Shown in pieces: positions 54,666 through 56,975 of a stretch of 64,000 nucleotides of DNA. The notes beneath the pieces are model-generated. The model saw only the letters and a program-made list of their open reading frames with translations. It ran no database searches and had not been told where the DNA came from. The stretch is from Parasphingorhabdus flavimaris (GTDB taxonomy: Bacteria > Pseudomonadota > Alphaproteobacteria > Sphingomonadales > Sphingomonadaceae), in NCBI RefSeq assembly GCF_013371215.1, contig NZ_JABWMH010000001.1, positions 806,001 to 870,000 on the forward strand. Direction: 5' to 3'. The position numbers were made by a program, and so were the translations under genes. Each line of letters begins with the position of its first letter. Positions within the stretch are counted from its first letter, which is position 1.

Positions 54666-56975
54666 GTGAGCGTTACTCCCGTCGAAAATCTCTCCGAAGC
54701 CGATGCCGCGAACGAACTGATGCGCCTGGCGCGGAAGATTGCGAAGCATAACAAGCTTTACCATGCCGAAGACTCGCCGGAGATTTCCGATGCGGATTAT
54801 GACGCGCTGGTGCGGCGGAATAATGCGCTGGAAGAGGCCTTTCCGCATCTGGTGCGCGACGACAGCCCCAACAAGCTGGTCGGCGCGGCGGTGGCGGCTT
54901 CGCCCTTGTCCAAGGTCAAGCACGAACAAAGGATGATGAGCCTCGATAACGGCTTTTCGGACGAGGATATCGCCGAATGGCTGGCGCGGGTGCGGCGGTT
55001 TCTGTATCTCGAGGAGGGTGCGCCGGTGGCGGTGACGGCGGAGGACAAGATTGACGGATTGTCCTGTTCGCTGCACTACGAGAAGGGCGAGCTGGTGCTG
55101 GCGGCGACGCGCGGTGACGGGCAGGTGGGCGAGGATGTGACCGCCAATGTGCGGATGATTGCGGATATTCCGCAATCTCTCCGTTCGTCTCGAGCGCAGT
55201 CGAGAGACGGTGATGCGGAGACCGGTGTCTCGACTTCGCTCGACACGAACGGCTATTCCCACACCATCCCCGATCTCTTCGAAATCCGCGGCGAGGTCTA
55301 CATGGCCAAGGCCGATTTTGCCGGGCTGAACGAACGGCTGATGGACGAGGGCAGGGCCGATGCCGATGCCAAGGGGGTTGAGTTCGATCCCGAGAAAATC
55401 CGCCAGTTCGCCAATCCGCGCAACGCCGCCGCCGGCTCGCTGCGGCAGAAGGATCCCAATGTCACCGCCAAGCGGCCGCTGAAATTCTGGGCGCATGGAT
55501 GGGGTGTGCACAGCGAAGTACCCGGCGAGACGGCTTTTGACGTCATGAAGGCGATTGAAAGCTGGGGCGTGCCGGTGTCGCCTTTGGTCAAAAGGTTTGA
55601 AACGCTGGAAGAGATGCTCGCCCATTATCGCCATATCGAGGCGGAGCGGGCGGACATGCCTTATGATATCGACGGGGTGGTCTACAAGGTCGACCGGCTC
55701 GACTGGCAGCAGCGGCTCGGTTTTGTCGCCAAGGCGCCGCGCTGGGCGATTGCGCATAAATTTCCCGCCGAGCAGGCGCAGACGACACTGGAGTCGATCG
55801 ATATCCAGGTCGGACGCACCGGCAAGCTGACCCCGGTTGGCCGTCTGAAACCGGTGACGGTCGGCGGCGTGGTGGTGTCCAATGTGACGCTGCACAATCG
55901 CGACGAAGTCGAGCGGCTCGGCGTGCGGCCCGGTGACCGGGTGGTGATCCAGCGGGCCGGGGACGTGATCCCGCAGGTGGTCGACAATCTGACGCGCGAT
56001 GAACAGCGCGAACCCTATCAATTCCCCGACCATTGCCCGGAATGCGGCAGCGAAGCCGTCGCCGAGGAAGGCGAAGTCGATGTGCGCTGCACCGGCGGCC
56101 TGATCTGCCCGGCGCAGCGGTTCCAGCGGCTGGTCCATTTTGTCTCGCGGGTGGCGCTGGATATCGATGGTCTGGGCGAGAAAAGCATTGCCGAATTTAT
56201 CGAAGCAGGCTGGCTGGAAAGCCCCGCTGATATTTTCCGGTTGCGGGACCATCGCAAGGACATCCTGGCCCGCGAAGGCTGGCAGGAAAAGTCTGTGGAT
56301 AATCTGTTGGCGGCTGTGGAAAAGAAGCGTCAGCCGGATGCGGCGCGGCTGCTGTTCGGGCTGGGCATCCGCCATATCGGCACGGTGACGGCCAAGGATC
56401 TGCTGAAGAATTTTGTGACCTTGCCGCGCTTGCGGGAGATTGCGGTGGCTGCGCAGGAATCCGCAGAATACCGTTCGTCTCGAGCGAAGTCGAGAGACGG
56501 GGATGGCGCGGAGCAGGGTGTCTCGACTTCGCTCGACACGAACGGAGAGGCTGCGCCCGATATCACCGGGACAGAAGCGGGCGATGCGGCCTGGGCGGAG
56601 ATTACCTCGATCGACGGCGTCGGCCCGACCGTGGCGCAGGCGCTGGCCGATTTCTTCCACGAACCGCATAATTGCTCTGTCTGGGATGATCTGCTGAGCG
56701 AGGTCTCGCCGCCCGACTATATCGTCGAAACCCGCGACAGCGCGGTGGCTGGCAAGACCGTCGTCTTCACCGGCAAGCTGGAAACCATGAGCCGCGACGA
56801 AGCCAAGGCGCAGGCCGAGGCGCTGGGGGCCAAGGCGTCGGGCTCGGTGAGCGCGAAGACCGATCTGGTGGTCGCCGGACCGGGGGCGGGGTCGAAGGCC
56901 AAGAAGGCGGCTGAGCTGGGTATCGAGGTGATTGACGAGACGGCATGGGCCGAGATTGTGGCAGCGGCAAGTTAA
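54666..56975 (+). CDS. ligA: NAD-dependent DNA ligase, with two in-frame repeat insertions
   Basis: Seals nicks in replication and repair. 769 residues from the GTG at 54666; the longer open frame from 54588 is repeat sequence. Ia domain (about 1-70, [19 protein letters not shown]), active-site Lys in [10 protein letters not shown] (about 126), [11 protein letters not shown], adenylation motif [11 protein letters not shown] fold, zinc finger (CPECGSEA ... [12 protein letters not shown], about 457-485), helix-hairpin-helix domain and a BRCT domain ([20 protein letters not shown], about 700-719). Two palindromes of 72 bp and 75 bp add the related peptides [19 protein letters not shown] and [19 protein letters not shown] plus SLDTNG; both insertions keep the frame. 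Confidence 0.96.
55181..55252 (+). repeat. Family B palindrome, first insertion in ligA
   Basis: 72 bp (24 codons). Ends CCGTTCGT and ACGAACGG; the inner parts CTCGAGCGCAGTCGAGAGAC and GTCTCGACTTCGCTCGA are also inverted copies. It lies in the adenylation domain, in the loop between IADIP and the FEIRGEVYM motif. Confidence 0.9.
56471..56545 (+). repeat. Family B palindrome, second insertion in ligA
   Basis: 75 bp (25 codons) with the same ends and the same orientation and reading frame as the copy at 55181-55252. The two differ mainly in the loop (GGTGATGCGGAGACC against GGGGATGGCGCGGAGCAG). It lies in the helix-hairpin-helix domain, between EIAVAAQ and [15 protein letters not shown]. Confidence 0.9.

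Follow-up and report, generated by a model that had tools for sequence, protein, structure and literature searches.

Palindromic repeats of several families recur in frame at two sites of the DNA ligase LigA in a sphingomonad and its relatives

Introduction

Small palindromic repeats are found in bacterial genomes in several described forms. MITEs are short elements with inverted arms and no coding capacity, ordinarily accompanied by a target duplication. Two species matter in what follows: S. alaskensis, which we take to be a Sphingopyxis, and E. litoralis, presumably an Erythrobacter. The CGTC REPs, as presented in the accessible portion of the account by Di Nocera et al. (2013, PMC3733652), occur mainly in alphaproteobacteria, including S. 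wittichii and S. chlorophenolicum. They are defined there by CGTC (or TGTC/CCTC) at one end outside the stem, by a stem of 8-9 bp that almost always starts with A-T pairs, and by a short unpaired tail that is mostly CCA, and they are described as having no dedicated transposase. Copies located within genes add 20 to 30 residues, and many of the genes concerned act in synthesis and repair. The same source places copies in tRNA synthetase genes of E. litoralis and S. alaskensis and in the DNA ligase gene of O. terrae, and in recB of two Xanthomonas species it describes different REPs at about one place.

On that partial account, intragenic palindromic repeats are already known in kind, sphingomonads included, and the sharing of one site by different repeats has a precedent too (PMC3733652). 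An earlier reading of the DNA described here, made from the sequence alone, knew of no description in sphingomonads; as a general statement this fails, given the in-gene REPs of S. alaskensis and E. litoralis and the REP in the O. terrae ligase gene. In this work, we describe a palindromic element present twice in the DNA ligase gene ligA within a 64-kb window (the whole stretch of DNA that was analysed) of a 3.35 Mb host genome, follow it through that genome and through relatives, and weigh the explanations for its recurrence. Loci in other stretches and genomes are referred to by L numbers where they need to be told apart.

Results

Two palindromic blocks within the ligA frame

The sequence-only reading had described two palindromes inside ligA, and their coordinates, shared termini, orientation and frame were all borne out by re-reading the sequence and the open frame; the near-identical peptides quoted for both blocks are likewise as stated. 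The features of the gene are as follows (window coordinates):

54666..56975, plus strand: ligA, NAD-dependent DNA ligase, 769 aa from the chosen GTG (putative start), open frame, above cut-off for NCBIfam NF005932 and TIGR00575
55181..55252, plus strand: site A, head-to-head dimer of TCGAGC-subtype hairpin units, in frame, residues about 172-196
55181..55213, plus strand: site A left hairpin unit (unit pattern, predicted fold)
55220..55252, minus strand: site A right hairpin unit, reverse orientation (unit pattern, predicted fold)
56471..56545, plus strand: site B, head-to-head dimer of the TCGAGC subtype like site A, in frame, residues about 602-627
56471..56503, plus strand: site B left hairpin unit (unit pattern, predicted fold)
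56513..56545, minus strand: site B right hairpin unit, reverse orientation (unit pattern, predicted fold)

Site A measures 72 bp and site B 75 bp; both begin with CCGTTCGT, finish with ACGAACGG, and are read in one orientation and one frame (RSSRA..) within the open ligA frame. Each block consists of two hairpin units placed head to head with CCGTTCG/CGAACGG as outer ends, and identity between the blocks is 92% for one pair of matching halves and 94% for the other. Terminal inverted repeats are present, with 28-nt arms that are 93% complementary at site B, and under DNA parameters each whole block can also fold as a single long hairpin (-27.8 and -29.0 kcal/mol). A 24-base unit pattern allowing up to 3 mismatches has exactly 4 matches in the 64-kb window, two in each block, and 0 matches in 100 dinucleotide shuffles used as a control. 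An Rfam scan around ligA returned nothing at gathering score.

In an AlphaFold2 model built from 29 LigA (mean pLDDT 76.8, pTM 0.47), pLDDT falls below 50 at residues 177-197, which is nearly all of insert A, and at residues 613-629, which cover the later part of insert B; this insert opens with about ten residues modelled as a helix. The model contains eight low-confidence segments, six of them away from the inserts, and it faintly suggests that the inserts may be flexible.

Palindromic motifs of another type lie close by: at window positions 54005-54661, copies of a CCCCTCCT..AGGAGGGG palindrome surround the short gene directly upstream of ligA, and the same motif class is also found inside ligA site A of L063, L102, L137 and L141.

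Dispersal of the element in the host genome

With 2 mismatches at most, the TCGAGC subtype (T) has 29 unit matches genome-wide. Its sister, the CTGAGC subtype (C), has outer ends identical to those of T and gives 58 matches when up to 3 mismatches are allowed; read backwards, the T and C patterns have 0 genome matches each. A loose scan of 41 stretches and the window gave 71 groups, which are partly chance matches in coding DNA, while a strict scan of the same material gave 29 clean head-to-head dimers, 14 of T and 15 of C. Such dimers predominate, and single units also occur. The window itself contains further C-subtype copies:

46304..46361, no strand assigned: CTGAGC-subtype dimer with CCGTTCG/CGAACGG ends
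59717..59813, no strand assigned: two CTGAGC-subtype units facing outward from each other
29292..29362, no strand assigned: degenerate CTGAGC-subtype units

Among the T dimers in the stretches that were read, 29 of 30 have unlike stems (13 of 14 in the own genome and 16 of 16 elsewhere, many of the latter in LigA homologues). When 149 genomes were searched whole, 14 TC/TG dimers were found in four genomes, seven of them in the own genome, together with 17 TG/TG dimers in four genomes of other genera (11, 3, 2 and 1); the genome with 11 TG/TG dimers also holds 2 of the TC/TG dimers, and the whole-genome search found no TG/TG dimer in the own genome. A rule by which the arms of T dimers always differ was rejected on account of the 17 TG/TG dimers, and unlike arms are a habit of the lineage.

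Individual copies show further variation. Two dimers of the own genome (L039:3463-3550 and L039:11155-11257) are mosaic, by eye, with a CTGAGC-type hairpin inside a TCGAGC-type arm, so one family appears able to land in another. At L034:2764-2834 and L034:5009-5079, two similar dimers, both with one unusual left stem, flank trpA/trpB-like genes; an autonomous copy between them was considered and rejected, as the intervening genes read by eye as trpB and trpA and include no transposase.

Position relative to genes, frames and lengths

With a codon score above 0.15 on both sides taken to mark a coding-like frame through a dimer, 22 of the 29 clean dimers have no such frame and 7 have one. Four of these seven fall within proteins of recognised families (LigA twice, GlyS and a SUF-associated protein), two lie in frames without a match, and in the seventh the element is upstream of the matched Sir2-like part. 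One further dimer, near the N-terminus of SufS, failed the codon-score screen; beyond the strict dimer set, CarA contains a single unit and a ligase-associated DEXH helicase contains a C-type copy. Spanning frames were read for 18 groups, and 10 translations, LigA included, were run against NCBIfam, 3 of them without a match.

The element is read as RSSRA.. in LigA, as VRVERSRD in GlyS and as PF(V/A)SSEVE in SufS and the SUF-associated protein, and in-gene copies occupy all three forward frames. Among the T dimers, 11 of 14 are open in 5 or 6 of the 6 frames, and C dimers are open in 4 at most. The lengths of the 29 clean dimers (T and C) leave remainders of 0, 1 and 2 on division by three in 10, 8 and 11 cases. 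Because most dimers have no coding frame across them, three frames are used and multiples of three are not preferred, the element is made neither for a single frame nor for genes; that the two LigA copies share a frame is therefore unremarkable.

This bears on how the blocks had first been interpreted. A multiple-of-three length and a shared frame do characterise the two ligA copies, but they do not carry over to the element as a whole, and the proposal of an active gene-inserting element is left unsupported by the position, frames and lengths of the dimers. Tabulated over the dimers and spanning frames that were read, the copies have no frame preference, a lack that the sequence-only reading had itself named as speaking against its proposal.

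Clues to mobility

None of the 29 clean dimers has an exact target duplication of 3 or more bases adjoining its ends, and exact adjoining duplicates of 2 bases occur in 3 of 29 dimers versus 2.1 in shuffles. The ends are preceded by a G-poor stretch: G makes up 12.4% of positions -7 to -2 (348 positions, 58 ends) and 29-34% of positions -40 to -9. The own genome contains two PF01797 transposase matches, one of them interrupted by two TAG. The 8-kb stretches around them gave no convincing units beside either match, only one two-mismatch match (L044 at 6741), and this transposase was rejected as the mobiliser. In the own genome, no transposase gene flanked by TCGAGC or CTGAGC units was found, nor was a parent element for the palindromes. 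No transposition event was observed; that the element is mobile, and that an enzyme moves it, we infer.

LigA across relatives

The LigA of the window was aligned with 110 loci, 80 of them named and 30 from the same genus (among which the own genome is counted). Its closest genus-named relatives are Sphingorhabdus and Parasphingorhabdus, and in one same-genus genome the LigA core is identical to that of Parasphingorhabdus marina. With the own second copy left out, 27 of the 110 rows have a repeat motif at site A and 28 have one at site B; once 12 identical-core and 4 partial rows are dropped, 21 of 95 rows carry a motif at site A and 22 of 95 at site B, and 74 and 73 rows, respectively, are empty. 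Within the 30 same-genus loci, site A holds T in 5 and another palindrome in 10, is empty in 11 and is uncovered or cut in 4, and site B holds T in 13 and does not in 17. The E. coli LigA (2owo) aligns to residue 175 of the window protein and resumes at 199, then aligns to 592 and resumes at 641; therefore both inserts lie in its gaps. On these comparisons, the two blocks are insertions and not ancestral loops. The expectation of the sequence-only reading that in-frame palindromic insertions would be missing from many relatives is borne out by the same-genus counts and the E. coli breaks.

Site A is occupied by motifs of five classes, T, C, G (CCCCGGCGGAGGCCGGGG type), P (CCCCGCGAAGGCGGGG type) and F (CCCCTCC..GGAGGGG type), and site B by two, T and S. 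G and P cross-match within the allowed mismatches, and cross-matching rows were assigned to G. Judged by their motifs, the five classes at site A reduce to no fewer than three clearly unrelated groups, because T and C have common outer ends and G is similar to P. On a LigA tree of the 95 rows from which the insert columns were excluded, at least 14 state changes are needed at site A and at least 10 at site B, and for presence or absence alone at least 10 and at least 9; these counts are rough, because 30 of the 92 inner branches are unsupported. With N-terminal extensions excluded, 128 of 131 motif matches in LigA fall within sites A and B, the other 3 being isolated two-mismatch matches. This figure counts every arm and cross-match and uses motifs derived from inserts at these same two sites, and it shows only that these families are confined to the two sites, being blind to families that occur only elsewhere. 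The recurrence of palindromes at two sites of LigA was unexpected and is the most interesting part of the analysis.

Another 20 LigA from the order, picked partly for long frames or split matches and thus not a fair sample, were inspected by eye (L227 repeats the insert of L059). Site A seems to hold another palindrome in L217 and an F-like one in L218, and site B is T-like in L215 and S-like in L216, L219 and L220.

Recurrence in GlyS

A GlyS match was obtained in 31 of 32 same-genus genomes, and 30 loci were read, with open frames ranging in length from 579 to 935 residues. Around residue 190, the loop carries a C motif in 5 of 30 and a T motif in 3 of 30, and it is empty in 22. In the stretch near residue 648, four of the 30 loci carry T, one carries P, one G and one F/S, and further repeat-like peptides appear there at the peptide level. 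By these motif matches, the GlyS of the genus has the recurrent occupation pattern of LigA. The GlyS palindrome is 73 bp long, so the palindrome alone does not account for the net length that was inserted. Near residue 536 of L183, GlyS of the congeners (L183-L212) also contains a stretch of 0-89 residues that is seemingly unrelated between genomes; it is mostly without palindromic motifs and may be an alignment artefact.

Discussion

The explanation that we favour, with a probability of about 0.8, is that REP/RPE-like palindromes survive in genes only at permissive loops, and that LigA has two such loops, hit repeatedly by several families. Each ligA block would be a single copy of a short palindromic element with two hairpin units, and copies of this element would spread genome-wide, mainly into places without a coding frame across them. 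A copy would persist in a needed gene only with a net multiple-of-three change, an open frame and a site that tolerates extra residues; an open frame would come easily, because most frames of the element are without a stop. Two tolerant spots in LigA would then have been hit time and again by the T element and by other palindromic families. The dispersion of the element, its absence in relatives, the recurrence at two sites and the use of three frames are observations; the added peptides are most likely carried along as flexible passengers that the protein tolerates, presumably neutral for LigA.

Alternatively, the occupied sites might be loops that LigA had from its ancestry and that disappeared on many occasions. 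The presence of T at site A, at the identical codon, in the clade of the window and in three Erythrobacter/Porphyrobacter rows (L089, L100 and L117) would agree with this, but different families occupy one site, the E. coli alignment breaks at both inserts, about three quarters of the 95 rows are empty at each site and the T repeat is dispersed in the own genome, which makes such an origin extremely improbable. A selected function is very unlikely as well, though less far-fetched: the peptides or hairpins would change the activity or the expression of LigA, akin to the mutator idea put forward for REP-bearing repair genes in the accessible part of PMC3733652, where repair genes are often among those bearing REPs. 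The in-frame element at site B in 13 of 30 same-genus loci and the C-type copy in the ligase-associated helicase of the own genome fit this idea, whereas unrelated sequences read in several frames at identical spots, and the copies borne by GlyS, SufS and CarA, speak against it.

A more serious rival, albeit a doubtful one, is exchange in place, in which a hairpin already present is itself the favoured target. Another palindrome would take its place or insert into it, through template switching or an enzyme active on hairpins in single-stranded form, and the loops would be standing exchange sites and not merely permissive. In the supported 11-row clade of the window, site A is occupied in every row, by T, C, G or P at one place and with no empty site among them, which looks more like exchange in place than like independent hits on an empty loop. 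By eye, the bearers of T, C and P have in common a short extension of the 3' flank that is missing from empty genes, and the mosaic dimers at L039:3463 and L039:11155 point the same way. Yet no obvious guiding sequence is common to T/C, G/P and F, no intermediate was found, and the occupied rows L063, L089 and L102, from other genera, are placed among rows with an empty site A, so that empty loops also receive insertions. The broader proposal that one mobilising process serves unrelated sphingomonad palindromic families and exchanges them in place in those loops of LigA and GlyS that bear hairpins is unlikely; if true, that process would have a weak, symmetric target choice, with a G-poor stretch before each end and no duplicated bases.

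Under repeated insertion at permissive loops, the two LigA spots amount to a natural map of insertion tolerance, read out many times by several repeat families. Their recurrence makes the neutrality of the passengers, a mobiliser shared across families and the site choice of the elements testable. In-frame repeat inserts in housekeeping genes can also distort alignments and gene models.

Comparison with known systems

A search of openly available main texts found no published account of this unit family or of two LigA spots reused by several palindromic groups, and among the matches listed for six 12-mers of the units in the literature, the titles look unrelated. The list of in-gene REPs belonging to PMC3733652, of which part is accessible, may include a sphingomonad ligase.

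Like the CGTC REPs as described in the available portion of that paper, the ligA element consists of small hairpin units that are mostly head-to-head dimers and mostly intergenic, with some genic copies in frame, and it shares with them that no transposase gene flanked by units was found in the genome. The units themselves differ from that partial description in stem and tail. In the left units of ligA, CGTC lies within the predicted paired or bulged part, and the right units read CGTG. Instead of with A-T pairs, the predicted folds of the left units start with CCGTT and a two-base bulge, and the right units pair from GTGTC or nearby; in place of a CCA tail, the left units end in GACGG and the right units, in their own direction, in CACC. 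By its sequence, the family appears to fall outside the CGTC definition as given in the accessible text of PMC3733652. The P-type and G-type inserts at site A, in which the first hairpin is followed by CCA, are perhaps nearer to the published type, a likeness judged by eye and not by comparison with the consensus.

With REPINs and GTAG REPs, as far as the available parts of PMC2817692 describe them (see also PMC3116915), the ligA element has in common two inverted units arranged as a dimer and dispersal in the genome; a RAYT gene flanked by two units, which is a feature of those systems (PMC2817692), was not found in this genome. Terminal inverted repeats, shortness and the absence of coding capacity are MITE-like traits, but, unlike MITEs, the element has no exact target duplication of at least 3 bases adjoining any of the 29 dimers, and no parent element was found. 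In its occurrence in frame within conserved genes, here LigA, GlyS, CarA and the ligase-associated helicase, it resembles the palindromic elements of Rickettsia, to which it is likened by description and not by sequence.
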